From contig NZ_BOOO01000036.1 of assembly GCF_016863275.1 (NCBI RefSeq), forward strand, positions 1-64,000: a stretch of 64,000 bases of DNA, in the 5' to 3' direction. The notes beneath the pieces were generated by a model that did no database searches, had not been told where the DNA came from, and was given only the letters and a program-made list of their open reading frames with translations. Below, piece after piece: positions 14,016-21,582 of this stretch. The first letter of the stretch is position 1, and the number at the start of each line of letters is the position of its first letter. The position numbers were made by a program, and so were the translations under genes. The DNA comes from Planotetraspora mira (GTDB taxonomy: Bacteria; Actinomycetota; Actinomycetes; Streptosporangiales; Streptosporangiaceae).

Positions 14016-16640
14016 GTGGTCGCGGGAAGATCATCGGGGCGACCGTCCGTACCGGATCCGGTGGAACTGCTGCCCCTGGTGTTCGCGCGACCGGGGGAGG
14101 CCCTCGAACGGGCTCACGCGCTGCTGGACGCGGAGCCCGGCCCTGGGCCGTATGAGGCCTCCATCGCGCACCAGGTGATCGGCATATGGCAGCGCGACTT
14201 CGGCGAACTCGCGGTCGGACTCGGGCACCTGCGGCGAGCGCGCGACCTGGCGGCGAGGTCCGGTTCCGCCGACCGTGAGGCGGACGTGCTCGCCACCCTC
14301 GGAGCCGCGTACGTCCACGCCGGCCGCACGAGACGGGGGCTGGACACCCTGGACCAGGGGGTCGCCCGCGGGACGGGGGTCACGCTGGCCCGCGTGCTGT
14401 TCCGCCGGTCGTACGCGTCGTGGGTGCTCGGCCGTCACCGCGAGGCACTGGAGGACCTGCGGCGGGCCATCCCCATTCTGAGACGGGCGGGCGACATCAT
14501 CTGGAGCGCCCGGGCGCTGACCCTGCGCGCCACCGTCAACCTGGCCATGGGCGCCGCCGAGTGGGCCCAGGCCGACTTCGCCGCCGCCGAGCGGCTGTGG
14601 GACGCCACCGACCAGGAGCACGACAAGGCCGTCGCCGTGGAGAACCGCGGGCTCGCCGCGTTCCGCGCGGGAGACCTCCCCGCCGCGCTCGGCCACTTCG
14701 ACGAGGCGGCGCGGCGCTACGCCGCCCTCGGCACGCCCGCGTTCGTCCTGGCCGGCTCCCGCTGCGGCGCCCTGCTCGCGGCCGGGCTCGCCCGTGAGGC
14801 GGCGCAGGAGGCCGACGCGGCGACGGAACTGCTCGACCGGCTGGGCGGCCAGACCACGCGAAGAGCCGAACTCATGCTCGTCGCCGCACGGGCGCTCAAC
14901 GACTCCGGCGATCCCGAGGCGGCGGCCGCCCGCGCCGACGCCGCGGTGCGCTCGTTCTCCGCGCAGCGGCGCGAGTGGTGGGAGGCCCACGCGCGGCTCG
15001 TGCGTGTCCAGGCCCGCCTCGCAGCCGGGCAGGCGTCGGAGACTCTCCTGCGGGAGGCGGTCGCGGTCGCCGAGGGGCTCACCGGACTCGGGTCGCCGGA
15101 ATCCGTCCAGGCGTTCCTGCTGGCCGGCCGTACGGCCACGGCCCTCGGCCGGCGGGCCGACGCGGACAGACATCTGGCCGTCGCCGCGAAGGCGAGGTGG
15201 CGGGGACCCGCCGTCGCGCGGGTCGACGGCTGGGTCGCCCAGGCGCTGCTGGCCGAGGCGGCGGGGCGGAGCCGCGGGCTGCTCGACGCCTGCCGGCGGG
15301 GGCTCGAACTGCTCGACGAGCACCGCATGACGCTGGGGGCGTCCGAGTTGCGGGCCCGCGTGACCGCGCGGGGAGCCGAACTCGCGACCCTCGCGCAACG
15401 GGCGACCTCGGGCGACCCGCGGAGGTTCCTCGTCTGGAGCGAGCGCCGGCGTGCGGTCGCGCTCGCCGTCCCGCCCGCCCGGCCGCCGGACGACCCCGAG
15501 TTGCAGCGGGACCTGACGGCGTTCCGTGAGATCTCCAGCCGCGTGGAGGCCGCCAGGTCGGCGGGCAGCCCGGTGCCGTGGTTACGCAGGGAGCAGGAGC
15601 GGCTGGAGCGGGACATCCGCGCGCGCAGCCTGCGGATGCGGAGCGAGGGGACCGCGCCCGACCACCGCGTGGACGCGCGTGCCCTGCTCGCCGCCCTCGG
15701 CGACGGGTGGCTGATCGAGATCGTCGCGCTCGACGGCCGGCTGGTCGTCCTGCTCTGTGGGAGCGGCCGGGTCCGCGCGTTCCAGGCGGGCCGGGTCGCC
15801 GACGCCGCGGCGGAGGCCGAGCACGCGCGCGCGGCCCTGCGCAGGTTCGCCTACCAGGGGCCGGGCGGGCGGACCGCCCTTCTCGAGGAGGCCGGGCGGC
15901 GGCTCCAGGAGACCCTGCTCGGGCCCGCCGTACGGCATCTGGTGGGGGAGGAGCCGGTCGTCGTCGTCCCGCCCGGGCCGCTCCACGGCGTGCCGTGGGC
16001 GCTGCTGCCCGCGCTGCGGGAGCGCGTGCTGAGTGTGTCGCCGTCCGCGAGCACATGGCTGCGCGCCCGGCGGATCGAGCCGCGCGGGGACCGGGTGGTG
16101 CTCGTCCGCGGCCCCGGCCTGGCGACCGGCGGTGCGGAGGTGCCGGTTCTGGCGGACCTGTACGGCGGCGCGACCGTGCTGGAGAACGGGACGGCCACCG
16201 GCGACTCCGTGCTGAAGGAGATCGACGGCTGCCGCATCGCCCACATCGCCGCGCACGGGACCTTCCGCGCCGACAGCCCGATGTTCTCCTCGCTGCAGAT
16301 GGACGACGGCCCGCTGATCGTGCACGACCTCGAACGGCTCAGGAGCGCTCCCTACCGGATCGTCCTGTCGAGCTGCGACTCGGGCACGCTCGAACCGGTG
16401 GGCGCGGACGAACTGCTCGGCCTCGCGACCGCGCTGCTTCCGCTCGGCACCGCCGGGATCGTCGCCAGCTCGGTGCCCGTGCACGACGAAGCCGTGGTCC
16501 CGCTCATGGTCGCCCTGCATCAGGCGCTGAGGAGCGGGCGCGGACTGGCCGAGGCCCTCCGCGACGCACGCGCGACGCTCCCGTCCTCCGCTCTCCACCA
16601 GGCCACCGGATGGTCCTTCTCCGCCATCGGGGCCGCCTGA
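14016..16640 (+). CDS. CHAT-domain (caspase-like) protease with TPR array
   Basis: 874 aa. The N-terminal 430 residues are alanine-rich paired helices with TPR periodicity (GELAVGLGHLRRARDLA, RTRRGLDTLDQGVA and so on), followed by a coiled stretch and the C-terminal CHAT peptidase domain (about 590-874). The catalytic dyad is visible: His747 in HIAAHGTF and Cys787 in VLSSCDSG, with ELLGLATALLPLGTAGIVAS after it, as in CHAT proteases. CHAT/TPR proteins are caspase-clan enzymes; several act in bacterial defence (for example Craspase-type partners). It is divergent from the S8 peptidase over a 126-base promoter region. With the paralogous adaptors and the sigma factor at 43.5 kb it may form one system. 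Confidence 0.88.
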   Translation: MVAGRSSGRPSVPDPVELLPLVFARPGEALERAHALLDAEPGPGPYEASIAHQVIGIWQRDFGELAVGLGHLRRARDLAARSGSADREADVLATLGAAYVHAGRTRRGLDTLDQGVARGTGVTLARVLFRRSYASWVLGRHREALEDLRRAIPILRRAGDIIWSARALTLRATVNLAMGAAEWAQADFAAAERLWDATDQEHDKAVAVENRGLAAFRAGDLPAALGHFDEAARRYAALGTPAFVLAGSRCGALLAAGLAREAAQEADAATELLDRLGGQTTRRAELMLVAARALNDSGDPEAAAARADAAVRSFSAQRREWWEAHARLVRVQARLAAGQASETLLREAVAVAEGLTGLGSPESVQAFLLAGRTATALGRRADADRHLAVAAKARWRGPAVARVDGWVAQALLAEAAGRSRGLLDACRRGLELLDEHRMTLGASELRARVTARGAELATLAQRATSGDPRRFLVWSERRRAVALAVPPARPPDDPELQRDLTAFREISSRVEAARSAGSPVPWLRREQERLERDIRARSLRMRSEGTAPDHRVDARALLAALGDGWLIEIVALDGRLVVLLCGSGRVRAFQAGRVADAAAEAEHARAALRRFAYQGPGGRTALLEEAGRRLQETLLGPAVRHLVGEEPVVVVPPGPLHGVPWALLPALRERVLSVSPSASTWLRARRIEPRGDRVVLVRGPGLATGGAEVPVLADLYGGATVLENGTATGDSVLKEIDGCRIAHIAAHGTFRADSPMFSSLQMDDGPLIVHDLERLRSAPYRIVLSSCDSGTLEPVGADELLGLATALLPLGTAGIVASSVPVHDEAVVPLMVALHQALRSGRGLAEALRDARATLPSSALHQATGWSFSAIGAA

Positions 16641-17282: not shown

Positions 17283-18368
17283 TCACCCGCCGTCCTCGCC
17301 GTGCTCGGTGGGGTGGCCGGGCACGGCGAGGACGGCGCCGACGGGCTCGGGATCGGCTGAGGGGGGATCGGCGTCAGCGGTGCGGTTGGAGCGGGGGTCG
17401 GCGCAGTGGCCGGGCTTGGTACGGCCCAGGGCCAGCACCTCCGGAGCGGCGTGGTCGACCTGGAGGGTGGTGTGCCCGATTCCCCATTCGTCGTGGACCA
17501 GCCGTTCCGCGGCCTGCCGTACGGTGTGACAGTCCGCGCCCGGCGCCACCAGGATGTGCGCGGACATCGCGGGATAGCCCGAGGTGACCTCCCAGATGTG
17601 CAGGTCGTGGACTTCGGCGACGTGCTCCAGAGCGGCGGTCTTGCGGCCGATCTCGGTGGGGTTCAGGCCCGCGGGCGCCGCCTCCATGAAGATCCGGCCC
17701 GAGTCCCGGACCAGAGCCCAGCCCGCCTTCAGCATCAGCGCCGCGACGATGAGGGCGGCGACGGCGTCGGCCCTGCCCCAGCCGGTGAGCCAGACGACCG
17801 CCCCGGCGACGGTGGTGGCGATGAACGCGTACAGGTCGTTGAGGATGTGCTGGAAGGCGCCCTCGACGTTGAGGCTGGTCCGGTCGGCCCTGTTGAGGAG
17901 CCAGGTCGCCGCGAGGTTGACGATGATCCCGGCGAGCCCCGTCGCCACCACGTAGGCGCCCTCGACCTCGGGCGGCACGATCAGCCGCCGGATGCCCTCG
18001 GCCACGAAGTACGCCCCCAGCAGGAGCAGCGTGATCCCGTTGATCTGCGCTGAGATGATCTCGGCTCGCTTGAGCCCGTAGGTGAAACCACCCTGAGGCG
18101 GCCTGGCCGATATCCGCATCGCGATCAGGGCGAAGACGATCGCGATGGCGTCGGTGAGCATGTGGCCCGCGTCGGAGACCAGCGCGAGTGACCGGGCGAT
18201 GAGGCCGATCACCACCTCCACGGCCATGAAGGCGACGATGAGCGCGAGCGCACCACCGAGCAGACGCCTGTCGGCGTCGGCGGCCACCGCGTGCCCGTGG
18301 CCGTGTCCGTGCCCATGTCCGTGCTTGTGCTGGGCATCAGTCGGCACGACATGTGAACGGATATTCAT
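17283..18368 (-). CDS. Cation diffusion facilitator (CzcD/ZitB-like zinc exporter)
   Basis: 361 aa, six membrane helices, the usual size plus a C-terminal tail. A His-rich N-terminus (HKHGHGHGHGHGH, about residues 14-26) precedes the first helix. Helix 2 carries SDAGHMLTDA and helix 5 carries HILNDLYAF, the paired HxxxD-type metal sites of zinc exporters. The cytoplasmic domain has VHDLHIWEVTSGYPAMSAHI. Known members exchange cytosolic Zn/Co/Cd for protons. A 22-bp palindrome covers its start codon, so metal-dependent derepression is likely. The low-complexity tail (last 45 residues) is not conserved in the family. Divergent from the DivIVA/ZIP gene chain, which also has His-rich proteins. 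Confidence 0.9.
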   Translation of the reverse strand: MNIRSHVVPTDAQHKHGHGHGHGHGHAVAADADRRLLGGALALIVAFMAVEVVIGLIARSLALVSDAGHMLTDAIAIVFALIAMRISARPPQGGFTYGLKRAEIISAQINGITLLLLGAYFVAEGIRRLIVPPEVEGAYVVATGLAGIIVNLAATWLLNRADRTSLNVEGAFQHILNDLYAFIATTVAGAVVWLTGWGRADAVAALIVAALMLKAGWALVRDSGRIFMEAAPAGLNPTEIGRKTAALEHVAEVHDLHIWEVTSGYPAMSAHILVAPGADCHTVRQAAERLVHDEWGIGHTTLQVDHAAPEVLALGRTKPGHCADPRSNRTADADPPSADPEPVGAVLAVPGHPTEHGEDGG

Positions 18369-18371
18369 ATG
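18350..18371. promoter_or_regulatory. Palindromic ArsR/SmtB-type operator over the CDF start
   Basis: CATgTGAA-N6-TTCAtATG, arms 18350-18357 and 18364-18371, seven of eight positions paired. It overlaps the CDF ATG (18366-18368). It resembles the TGAA-N6-TTCA core bound by zinc sensors of the ArsR/SmtB family. No such regulator is encoded in the window. Confidence 0.6.
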
Positions 18372-18447
18372 TGCGAGTGTAGGCCGGTCGGAGCCGCTGT
18401 CAAGGCACGCCGTAGCGGGCCGGTCGCGTTCCGTATCTCACTCGAGA

Positions 18448-18462
18448 GCCCTCCGGGAGGGC
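18448..18462. other. Small hairpin in the CDF/DivIVA divergent region
   Basis: GCCCTC-cgg-GAGGGC. Too small and without a T-run for a confident terminator. The rest of 18372-18608 shows no gene. Confidence 0.3.
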
Positions 18463-18608
18463 CAAGAACGATTGATTGATTGCTCAGATGTGTAAACGAT
18501 AAGTAACTGGAGAACTACTTTCAGTAAGCATCGCAGGCCGGCCCGGCAACACTGGGCCGACCCGCCGGGCTCCCGCTGGGGGAGGCGATGCCATCGAAGG
18601 GAGACAGC

Positions 18609-18704
18609 GTGGCAATCGCCAAGAGGACGGCCTCCGTGCGGATCCTCCATGCCGCGGCGGCCCACAGTGCCCGCGGAGACATGTCGAAAGGCTCGGTGAG
18701 GTAG
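18609..18704 (+). CDS. Possible 31-aa small protein upstream of the DivIVA-like gene
   Basis: GTG at 18609 is preceded by aagggag at ideal distance. The frame encodes 31 mostly basic/alanine residues and stops (TAG 18702-18704) three bases before the ATG of the DivIVA-like gene, which is the spacing of translational coupling. No family recognised. It could be a real small protein or a leader that controls the next gene. Confidence 0.35.
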   Translation: MAIAKRTASVRILHAAAAHSARGDMSKGSVR

Positions 18705-18707
18705 GTC

Positions 18708-19448
18708 ATGGGCGAAGGACATGGGCACGGCCACTCCGCTGTGGATGTGGCCGAGAACGGTTCGGCCGTGCGGGCGGGCTCCGACCCGCACGGGGTGACG
18801 GGCCTGCTGAGCCCGGCCGCCGTGCGCAACCAGGTGTTCACGGTCGTCCGCCTGCGGGAGGGGTACGACCTGGCCGAGGTGGACCGCTTCCTCGGGCAGG
18901 TCGAGACCACCCTGAGCCGCGTCCTGCGGGACAACGAGGAGCTCAGGGTCCGGCAGGACCAGGCGGAACAGAACATCCAGCGGGCGGTGCTCTCGCCCGG
19001 TGACAGCGCGGTGCGCATCGTCGAGATCGCCCAGGAGGCCGCCGACCGGACCTTGGCCATGGCCCAGGAGGAGGCGCACGCGATCCTGGCCAGGGCGCAG
19101 GAGCAGGCCGAGATGGTGGAGAGCGACGCGCTGGGACGGGCGGCGCTGCTGCAACGCGAGGCCAGAGAGTCCCATCGGGACGTCCTCGAGCGCCGGGTGG
19201 AAGGACTGCACGCCTTCGTGGCCGACCTCGGTGCGCGCCTGCGGGAGATCGTGGACGGCGAGATCGGCCGGCTCCACGGACTGCTCGACGAACTTCCCGA
19301 TTTCGGCGGTGTCCAGCCGATCCTCGCCCAGCACGCCGCCTCGGATGATGCCGACGGCGACCGTGACGGCGACACGGCACCCCTGGTGAGCGGCCTGGCG
19401 GCGGGGGAGCAGTCCCATCCGGGCGCGAACGGGCGCGCACTCGGATGA
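18708..19448 (+). CDS. DivIVA-domain protein with His-rich N-terminus
   Basis: 246 aa. Starts MGEGHGHGHSAVDV, a short metal-binding-like segment. A DivIVA N-terminal motif follows at about 38-65 (VFTVVRLREGYDLAEVDRFLGQVE, quoted in parts: the RLREGYD and EVDRFL elements), then coiled coils (about 65-200: VRQDQAEQNIQRAV, AAD and EAHAILARAQEQAEM) and an acidic tail. DivIVA proteins assemble at poles and septa of actinomycetes and recruit partners through coiled coils. This copy is shorter than the growth-pole DivIVA/Wag31 and is probably a specialised paralogue. Its stop overlaps a small ORF (ATGA) which overlaps the ZIP-IHF gene. Location in a metal-transport cluster suggests a scaffold linked to metal handling (inference). 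Confidence 0.82.
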   Translation: MGEGHGHGHSAVDVAENGSAVRAGSDPHGVTGLLSPAAVRNQVFTVVRLREGYDLAEVDRFLGQVETTLSRVLRDNEELRVRQDQAEQNIQRAVLSPGDSAVRIVEIAQEAADRTLAMAQEEAHAILARAQEQAEMVESDALGRAALLQREARESHRDVLERRVEGLHAFVADLGARLREIVDGEIGRLHGLLDELPDFGGVQPILAQHAASDDADGDRDGDTAPLVSGLAAGEQSHPGANGRALG

Positions 19449-19606
19449 ACGCCGCGACGTCGCGGGACAGCGTGCGCGACACCTCGCACCGCAGCGAGCA
19501 CCGCAGCGAGTGGGACAACGAGCAGAACGGTGACCGGACCGACCGGCGGACCGAGCAGATCGAGCAGACCGAGCAGATCGACAGGAGATCTCAGCGATGC
19601 CGCTAA
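19445..19606 (+). CDS. Possible 53-aa charged linker protein between DivIVA and ZIP genes
   Basis: ATG at 19445 overlaps the DivIVA stop (ATGA), and the stop at 19604-19606 lies inside the first codons of the ZIP gene (ATG 19597), so both junctions are coupled. The product is highly polar and contains short repeats (HRSEHRSE, TEQIEQTEQI). It fills the whole 148-base gap between the two genes. Too short for a family assignment. Repeat DNA alone could create such an open frame, so confidence is modest. Confidence 0.4.
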   Translation: MNAATSRDSVRDTSHRSEHRSEWDNEQNGDRTDRRTEQIEQTEQIDRRSQRCR

Positions 19607-20844
19607 CGGATTGGGTGGGCACCGTCGGGCCGGTGCTGGAGGCGATTCCGGGCAGGCGGGAGGCGTGGGCGGCGGTGGTCCTGGTCTGCGCCGCGACCCT
19701 GGCCGGTGCGTGGATGGCCCGGCGCAACACCCGGCGGTTGAGCCTGTGGCTGGCGATCGCCTCGGCGATGATGCTGGTCACGGCGCTGGTCGACCTGCTG
19801 CCTGACGCGTGGTCGGAGGCCGTGGAGGCCGGAGTCCCCCTTTGGACGCTCCTTCTCTCCGGCTCGTTCGGCTTTCTCGTCATCACCTATTTCACGCGAC
19901 GCGGGTGTGCCTGTCCGTCCGACGCGGCTCCGGGCGCGATGCACGCGCCCGGGCGTCATCGCCGGGTGAAGCAGGCGGTCGACGCGGCGTTGTTCGGCGG
20001 CATGGGAACCGCCGCCGCGCTCACGCTCCACCGTGCGATCGAGGGCGCGACCCTCGGGCTCACCGCGTCGGCCGTCGTGATCGTGGCGCTGACGATCCAC
20101 TCGGCGAGTGAGGGGCTCGCGCTGGCCGCTCTCCTGGACCTGGCCAGGCAGCGCGTCGCCCCCTGGCTGGTGGTCGCGTGCGTGAGCCCGGCCGTCGGGG
20201 TGCTGATGGCCACCGTCGCCCCGATGCCCGGCTGGCTTGTGCCGATCCTGCTGAGCATGGTCATGGGCGTGCTGCTCCGCACCGCGGTGGTGGGCATGAA
20301 GCTCGCCGCGAGCAACCAGCGGGACGGCCGGCTCTCCCGGCGCCAGGTCACGATCGCGGCCATGGCCGCCACGACCGTGGGGGTCATCATCGTCACGGCG
20401 CACACCCTCCACGGCGAGGGTGAGCCCGAGCAGGCGGCCCCGCTCTTCCGGCACTCTCTCGCGGGGTTCCCCGACGCGGCCGTGGCCCACGCCCACGGGG
20501 CGCCGCCGGCTCTGGCGGGTGGCTCGAGCACCTCACCGACGGCGCCGCTCGCCCGGGTTCCCGGGGCGACGGCGACGACCGACGCCGGCCCGCTCAACCG
20601 GGCGGAGCTCCGTGAGGCCGTGACGTCGGGAAAACTGAGCCTCGGCGACGTGCTCAAACGGCACGATGAGACCACCGGGCGTGTGGTCGTCGGCCGGATC
20701 GTCCGTCTTCTGCCCGGGTACCTGCCGGAAAGGGTCGACTCCCTGATCCAGTCGAGCGGCGTCGATGAGAAGCGGCACATCGCCGACCTGTCCGAGGACG
20801 AGCGCCGCAAGTTGCTGGCGGTCTTCGACGGCCATCCCGAATGA
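19597..20844 (+). CDS. ZIP-type metal transporter fused to an actinobacterial IHF-like (H2TH) domain
   Basis: 415 aa. About eight membrane helices (residues 22-280) include the ZIP signatures LHRAIEGATLGLT and TIHSASEGLALA, whose HxxxEG-type residues coordinate metal in known ZIPs. A short CACPSD loop and HAHGAP stretch may bind metal as well. After a flexible linker, residues about 333-412 (RAELREAV...SLGDVLKR...GRVVVGRIVRLLPGYLPERVDSLI...GVDEKRHIADLSEDE) align along their whole length with the helix-two-turn-helix fold of actinobacterial integration host factor, including the LPG turn and the final arginine-rich GxxExRxIxxL segment. A DNA-binding nucleoid domain tethered to a metal transporter is unusual. 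ZIP assignment is fair; the IHF likeness is by eye. Confidence 0.75.
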   Translation: MPLTDWVGTVGPVLEAIPGRREAWAAVVLVCAATLAGAWMARRNTRRLSLWLAIASAMMLVTALVDLLPDAWSEAVEAGVPLWTLLLSGSFGFLVITYFTRRGCACPSDAAPGAMHAPGRHRRVKQAVDAALFGGMGTAAALTLHRAIEGATLGLTASAVVIVALTIHSASEGLALAALLDLARQRVAPWLVVACVSPAVGVLMATVAPMPGWLVPILLSMVMGVLLRTAVVGMKLAASNQRDGRLSRRQVTIAAMAATTVGVIIVTAHTLHGEGEPEQAAPLFRHSLAGFPDAAVAHAHGAPPALAGGSSTSPTAPLARVPGATATTDAGPLNRAELREAVTSGKLSLGDVLKRHDETTGRVVVGRIVRLLPGYLPERVDSLIQSSGVDEKRHIADLSEDERRKLLAVFDGHPE

Positions 20845-20859
20845 GCTAGCATCGTTATC

Positions 20860-21582
20860 ATGGATGCGAAAACGCGGATACTTCAGGCCGCCGCGACTTT
20901 GCTCTCCGAGTCGCCGGAGGCGGACATCTCGACCCGGGCGGTCTGTGAGGCCGCGGGGGTCGGTGCGCCGGCGCTCTACCGGCAGTTCGGCGACAAGGAG
21001 GGGTTGCTGACCGCGGTCGTCGACTACGGCTTCGAGCAGTATCTGGCGGGCAAGCGGGCGGCCCAGCCGTCGGCCGACCCCGTGCAGGACCTGCGGGACG
21101 GATGGGACAACCATGTGGCGTTCGCGGTCGACAACCCCAACTACTACCGGCTGATGTACTCGCCCGGTCTCTCGGCCCCGCCGGGCGCGGCGGCCGAGGC
21201 GCACGGGCTGCTGGTGGCGGTGCTCGAGCGATGCGCGGCGGCGGGCAGGCTCCGGATCTCGCCGCAGCTCGCGGCTCAGATGGTCATGTCCGCCAACGCG
21301 GGAGTCGCCCTGTCCCTGGTCTCCCGCCCCGCCATCTACACCGACCAGGGCTTCTCTCGTCTGGTGCGTGACGCCGTCATCGCGTCCATCACCGTCGACG
21401 AGGCTCCCGCGGACGGCGGGACGGCGCCGGGAACGGCGGCCGGAGCGCCGGGCGTCCCGGTGACGGCGACCACACTCAGCGCGCAGTTGCGTGACGCGCC
21501 TCCGGCGGTCCTGACCTCGGCCGAGACCGCCCTGCTCCAGCAGTGGCTCACAAGTCTCGCCGGGGCGCCGTCCGGGGCCTGA
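20860..21582 (+). CDS. TetR/AcrR-family regulator
   Basis: 240 aa. N-terminal helix-turn-helix (about 3-50: RILQAAATLL, STRAVCEAAGVGAPALYRQFGDKEGLL), then an effector domain of the TetR_C_33-like kind (NPNYYRLMYSPGLSAPPGAA). The gene lies 15 bases after the ZIP-IHF stop and so is probably in the same transcript. It may regulate the metal cluster, although its ligand is unknown. The C-terminal 50 residues are Gly/Ala/Pro-rich. A strong hairpin follows immediately after its stop. Confidence 0.87.
   Translation: MDAKTRILQAAATLLSESPEADISTRAVCEAAGVGAPALYRQFGDKEGLLTAVVDYGFEQYLAGKRAAQPSADPVQDLRDGWDNHVAFAVDNPNYYRLMYSPGLSAPPGAAAEAHGLLVAVLERCAAAGRLRISPQLAAQMVMSANAGVALSLVSRPAIYTDQGFSRLVRDAVIASITVDEAPADGGTAPGTAAGAPGVPVTATTLSAQLRDAPPAVLTSAETALLQQWLTSLAGAPSGA

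Follow-up and report, generated by a model that had tools for sequence, protein, structure and literature searches.

A ZIP-like membrane protein with a C-terminal actinobacterial IHF-fold domain in Planotetraspora mira and other actinomycetes

Why a membrane protein of the metal-transporter type should end in a domain resembling a nucleoid DNA-binding protein is the question raised by a gene of Planotetraspora mira, found in a 64,000-nucleotide stretch (contig NZ_BOOO01000036.1 of assembly GCF_016863275.1, positions 1 to 64,000, analyzed as a whole and referred to here as the window). A preliminary description had read the first two thirds of the encoded protein as ZIP-type helices with HxxxEG signatures and its C-terminal part, the tail, as the core of actinobacterial integration host factor (IHF), and had proposed that such a DNA-binding domain could couple metal flux to local DNA. 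Our analysis confirmed that the 415-aa protein is a ZIP-like membrane protein with a C-terminal actinobacterial IHF-fold domain (Table 1). As to its role, on balance we favor a divergent ZIP-family membrane protein of metal homeostasis, with an accessory domain that was exapted from IHF and lies outside.

Table 1 Layout of the fused gene and its neighbors in the window
Feature	Coordinates	Strand	Evidence or remarks
Whole gene (ZIP-like core, linker, IHF-fold tail)	19597..20844	+	ATG start; 415 aa plus stop
ZIP-like core, residues 20-275	19654..20421	+	AlphaFold2 model; Foldseek to BbZIP
TM4 metal motif HRAIEG, residues 145-150	20029..20046	+	H145, R146, E149 invariant 37/37
TM5 metal motif HSASEG, residues 168-173	20098..20115	+	H168, S169, E172 invariant 37/37
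Linker, residues 276-332, variable, predicted disordered	20422..20592	+	Low pLDDT; dN/dS
IHF-fold tail, residues 333-412, predicted outside membrane	20593..20832	+	NCBIfam actino_IHF; sIHF fold match; topology
DivIVA-domain protein, short His-rich start, 246 aa	18708..19448	+	Pfam DivIVA E 4.7e-14
CDF-type metal exporter, His-rich N-terminus, 361 aa	17283..18368	-	Pfam Cation_efflux E 3.6e-39
TetR-family regulator directly downstream	20860..21582	+	Pfam TetR_N E 2.3e-11

The AlphaFold2 model of the protein (pLDDT 72 overall) contains eight TM helices in the core (residues 20–43, 45–78, 82–103, 121–155, 159–182, 188–207, 214–239, and 248–275), followed by a linker with a pLDDT below 50 at residues 273–329. 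The core matched the Pfam Zip profile (PF02535) with an E of 6e-8 and 32.7 bits, under the cut-off of 35.1, and the NCBIfam ZupT profile over residues 30–233 with an E of 3.7e-5 and 23.1 bits, the cut-off being 252. When the full-length model was searched with Foldseek, the ten top matches were all ZIP entries, nearly all BbZIP-named (E 4.2e-4 to 1.7e-3; TM by target 0.51–0.61, rmsd 6.1–9.3), and the core model was thereby found to have a ZIP fold. The HxxxEG signatures are H145-R-A-I-E149-G and H168-S-A-S-E172-G, and their His and Glu residues, the M1-type ligands H145, E149, H168, and E172, are invariant in 37/37 fused proteins. By profile and model, the first two thirds of the protein are thus a ZIP-like membrane protein, as had been proposed.

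At the M2 site, which is present in most ZIPs and not in all, the usual residues are replaced in the fused family by R146 (invariant), S169, and P198. The acidic/Pro motif (D/E-x-x-P) of TM7 is absent from the fused family, which has an invariant R228 in this helix, whereas ZupT and loci L017 and L020 carry the motif there. The fused protein therefore shares with BbZIP and ZupT the predicted eight-helix fold, the HxxxEG motifs in TM4 and TM5 and, by homology, a C-terminus outside the membrane, while it differs from them in its M2 and TM7 residues, in its scores under the Pfam and ZupT cut-offs and in the addition of a folded C-terminal domain. A more distant relative, L014, has an HR..EG/HS..EG core without a tail. 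The M2 and TM7 replacements, including the invariant R146 and R228, would fit a core that no longer transports metal and serves as a metal sensor or, for the DivIVA-domain protein, as a scaffold in the membrane; the tail would then be the outer part of the protein. We regard this as possible and rather improbable, since the M1-type ligands are invariant and since, according to PMC11549095, M1 is the transport site of BbZIP and M2 is auxiliary, its loss lowering transport modestly. For the same reason, metal transport by the core of the fused protein is plausible, judging from its residues.

The tail was matched by the NCBIfam actino_IHF profile (NF041260) at residues 334–410, corresponding to profile positions 23–101 of 102, with an E of 5.9e-9 and 36.4 bits for the whole protein and an E of 3.5e-10 and 40.3 bits for the tail alone. 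Because both bit scores are under the curated cut-off of 60 bits, the tail is regarded as a divergent relative of actino_IHF; 32/37 tails, scanned singly, matched this profile at E<=0.01. Profile positions 1–22, which form the N-terminal helix in IHF, have no counterpart, so that the tail is an IHF core and not the whole protein, and the match starts at position 23, after TM8 of a membrane protein, which is not the arrangement of a small soluble nucleoid protein. Checked for H2TH/IHF fold matches in the PDB, the predicted tail structure ranked sIHF first and was found to have the sIHF/mIHF fold, while the H2TH domains of S13, KsgA, and topoisomerase VI ranked below sIHF and were set aside as related folds only. 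The profile of the fused family, searched against PDB sequences, found mIHF and sIHF and did not find BbZIP; eight further hits (E 0.011–0.97; a viral polyprotein, spikes, a huntingtin fusion, and another) were deemed chance. Compared with sIHF and mIHF (NF041260), the tail differs in sitting on a membrane protein, in having lost the N-terminal helix and most of the RRxxGLG motif and in scoring below the cut-off. The proposed relation to the actinobacterial IHF core was upheld by profile, by predicted fold, and by the tree described below, and a tail alone is poor ground for naming such proteins “integration host factor”.

ZIPs have eight TMs with both termini outside, an arrangement confirmed for BbZIP (PMC9530640) and also given as a prediction in PMC6527156. 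In the 37 fused proteins, the mean K+R counts were 3.54, 6.22, 1.68, and 5.00 for loops 1–2, 3–4, 5–6, and 7–8, and 0.92, 0.35, 1.00, 0.27, and 0.84 for the N-terminus, loops 2–3, 4–5, and 6–7 and the 15 columns following TM8, where one protein of the 37 is exceptional with 11 K+R. Since the tail follows TM8, the ZIP C-terminus lies outside and the K+R pattern agrees, we strongly infer, from homology and charge distribution, that a flexible linker carries the tail on the outer side of the membrane. Pro, Ser, and Thr are abundant in many linkers of the fused proteins, and stretches rich in these residues are common in exported proteins. The ZIP4-type ZIPs also have an accessory domain outside the membrane, which, as described in PMC9530640, is N-terminal and unrelated in fold, whereas the tail is C-terminal and IHF-like.

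The DNA-binding residues were compared among 45 tails, 20 type-2 IHFs (a second soluble type), and 6 canonical IHFs, with residues numbered after the canonical IHF of the window's own genome. Six loci (L077, L116, L123, L130, L131, and L132) had been dropped from the tails as repeats, and the 26 soluble IHFs are a sample of search hits, in which three of the six canonical proteins have one and the same core sequence and a further two are identical. Residues P150, R170, R171, and R173 of mIHF were reportedly found important by Sharadamma in 2017; by our own counting, we take them to be P65, R85, R86, and R88 in the present numbering. R85 and R86 of the RRxxGLG motif occur together in 26/26 soluble IHFs versus 6/45 tails (L036, L041, L060, L063, L108, and L121), the first Gly of the motif, G89, in 26/26 versus 1/45 (D or E in 40 tails), and G91 in 25/26 versus 1/45. 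Similarly, G68 and K/R71, each found in all 26 soluble IHFs, were retained in 5/45 and 14/45 tails, respectively, while L90, R95, and L98 were retained in all 71 proteins. P65 and R88 do not separate the tails from their nearest soluble kin, because P65 is present in 38/45 tails and 18/26 soluble IHFs and R88 is Gly in 20/20 type-2 IHFs. The window's tail reads RHIADLS at the RRxxGLG position and thus lacks the motif. The median net charge was +2 for the tails (-2 to +15) versus +5 and +6 for the type-2 and canonical IHFs. These comparisons suggest that the tails retain the fold with the DNA-facing motif mostly replaced, and the extent of this loss may be overstated, as the third Arg (R88) is missing from the soluble type-2 IHFs too. 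The Actinomadura-group tails L060, L108, and L121 retain RR (the genus code of L108 and L121 is that of L123, a copy from the L060 genome), which gives a series from these tails to tails without RR. L060 is strongly basic and its linker is Arg-rich, and the L108 linker contains a GHGHGHGHG stretch.

An outside tail might still bind a polyanion, for example teichoic acid or extracellular DNA, and so anchor the transporter to the wall or to a polymer that holds metal. The retained DNA-binding fold, the outside placement and the basic or His-rich character of some tails and linkers (L060 and L108) are in its favor, but with the motif lost and the charge lowered in most tails we consider it unlikely. 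The coupling of metal flux to local DNA, in which a cytoplasmic DNA-binding tail would tether the chromosome or transcription to the membrane transporter, found no support: ZIP topology and the K+R pattern place the tail outside, RR remains in few tails and GLG is nearly gone, and the median net charge falls below that of both kinds of soluble IHF. Although the tail has the sIHF fold and the Actinomadura-group tails retain RR, this tether is disfavored and seems very improbable to us, least firmly for the Actinomadura-group members.

The same fusion was sought in other actinomycetes and proved to be far from absent among the homologues. In a scan of named species genomes, core and tail were in one frame at 36/42 loci (several of them are paralogues from the same genome, and L048 has only part of a tail), spread over eight genera: Planotetraspora, Microtetraspora, Streptosporangium, Microbispora, Acrocarpospora, Actinomadura, Herbidospora, and Nonomuraea. 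L060, from Actinomadura, is filed by NCBI under Thermomonosporaceae. The other six loci (L040, L043, L044, L052, L058, and L065) are tail-less. The named locus nearest to the window's protein is that of Planotetraspora silvatica (96%), and all four Planotetraspora congeners have a full-length orthologue (75–96% identity), each with at least one further copy. Matches were found in 27/60 relative genomes, many to soluble IHFs only, and matches spanning core to tail in at least 24/150 genomes of the family, as counted from the listed spans. An order-level scan gave matches at E<=1e-15 in 23/121 genomes, all of the window's family code; five of these 23 (G009, G198, G027, G097, and G126) had no match spanning core and tail, and the G195 matches covered either the core alone or the core plus some of the linker. 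Neither the fusion nor a ZIP-DivIVA pairing was described in the titles and abstract openings listed by searches of open-licence literature. Among the five Planotetraspora orthologues, dN/dS was 0.12–0.23 for the core, 0.13–0.27 for the tail, and 0.33–1.67 for the linker, and the tail is under purifying selection. An artefact in which an assembly error or a frameshift joined two genes by chance, at which the tail-less copies (6/42) and an out-of-frame stretch in L026 that by eye looks like a remnant might hint, has a negligible probability and is ruled out by the same join at 36/42 loci, the selection on the tail and the single clade of tails.

In a tree of the 45 tails, 20 type-2 IHFs, and 6 canonical IHFs (77 columns), the tails formed one clade (98/91) that adjoins the type-2 IHFs, and the tails and type-2 IHFs have in common a two-residue gap relative to canonical IHF; both results support common descent of the tails with soluble IHFs. 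A second, independent fusion in Actinomadura had been considered when a quick tree of 37 tails, also built on 77 columns, placed L060 beside a soluble IHF (SH-aLRT 86), and it was dropped because the careful 45-tail tree gave a single clade. On the core tree, the tail label needed five changes, and 113/500 label shuffles were as low; because the absence of the tail is scattered and five changes are no better than shuffled labels, the tail appears dispensable in some lineages. One tail gain with repeated loss would most simply account for this distribution. Many genomes of the family carry a type-2 soluble IHF (MALPTLTPEQR...) beside the canonical one, and these are the nearest kin of the tails (loci L009, L010–L013, L015, L016, L018, L019, L102–L107, L110–L113, and L115).

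A DivIVA-domain homologue was found near 34/43 copies of the gene (33 within 350 bp) and not found near the other nine; CDF hits occurred at 27/43 and ArsR-type hits at 17/43 loci in flanks of up to about 5 kb, the profiles having been drawn from 8 (DivIVA), 2 (CDF), and 1 (ArsR) of the 43 counted loci themselves. A further set had a DivIVA-domain gene at 20/20 loci, eight of which repeat earlier ones. No ArsR gene was found near the window's copy, where the exporter reached 236.6 bits against the NCBIfam CDF cut-off of 82.35. The TetR neighbor (family 10) was confined to 5/43 loci, the five orthologous Planotetraspora loci, and a tail-bearing Planotetraspora paralogue group has a neighbor family in four loci, represented at L042 by a Cu/Zn superoxide dismutase; the genes of both families were called by a simple composition rule and not by a gene finder. 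A Zur box consensus, with up to three mismatches allowed, gave 0 matches in the window (0.03 expected), and the divergent region 18360–18720 contains a single 12-nt inverted repeat with 83% complementarity. The neighboring genes suggest a zinc-type metal homeostasis, and the DivIVA-domain protein is likely to be a partner of the ZIP-like protein. It resembles DivIVA/Wag31 in having an N-terminal DivIVA domain, but differs in reaching 56.6 of 260 bits (the Wag31 cut-off), in its His-rich start and in sitting with metal genes. Several DivIVA-domain neighbors (in the window, at L035–L076 and in the further 20-locus set) have His-rich GHGHGH starts, and DivIVA-domain genes adjoin ZIP genes both with and without the tail. 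The ZIP-DivIVA pair looks older than the tail. In this module, an atypical ZIP core is paired with a DivIVA-domain protein, and CDF and ArsR genes are often close by.

For a divergent ZIP-family protein with an outside accessory domain, we propose that a type-2 actinobacterial IHF core was fused once to its C-terminus, that most tails would have lost DNA binding after the fusion, and that the tail may have been kept as an accessory ectodomain whose binding to a partner, to a polymer of the wall or to a second tail could position or gate the transporter. More speculatively, the DivIVA-domain protein might hold the ZIP-like protein from the cytoplasm where the membrane is curved, at tips and septa, so that the two proteins together would fix the site of metal exchange. 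A nucleoid DNA-binding fold would then have become part of a membrane protein and, as the evidence now stands, apparently have been moved to the other side of the membrane. In a bolder version, which we hold unlikely, this fold moved once to the outside on the end of a ZIP-like transporter and there binds a polyanion that holds zinc, either extracellular DNA or the teichoic acid of the wall; on the inner side, the transporter would be pinned at tips or septa by its His-rich DivIVA-domain partner. If true, this would be a site-specific metal-exchange station at growing tips or septa. If confirmed, the ZIP-DivIVA module would link metal supply to the polar growth machinery.

Some frames depart from the fused arrangement. 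L022:4658-5614 and L026:4473-5462 (the L040 and L043 genes) are Planotetraspora paralogues without a tail, the second of which (L026) has a short stretch out of frame that resembles, by eye, the start of a tail. L109:2605-3126 (-) is a 174-aa frame with only loop 7–8, TM8, the linker, and an intact-looking tail; no other ZIP part was found in the 6 kb region, and the frame is either a remnant or a one-helix tail protein. L031:5040-6344 (-) has a tail and a Pro-rich linker that closely resembles the linker of the fused L076. Its frame lacks a ZIP core, the upstream part appears by eye to be another gene read out of frame, and this tail is possibly detached. Elsewhere in the window, 14016-16640 (+) encodes an 874-aa protein presumably made up, by eye, of TPR repeats followed by a CHAT-like domain.
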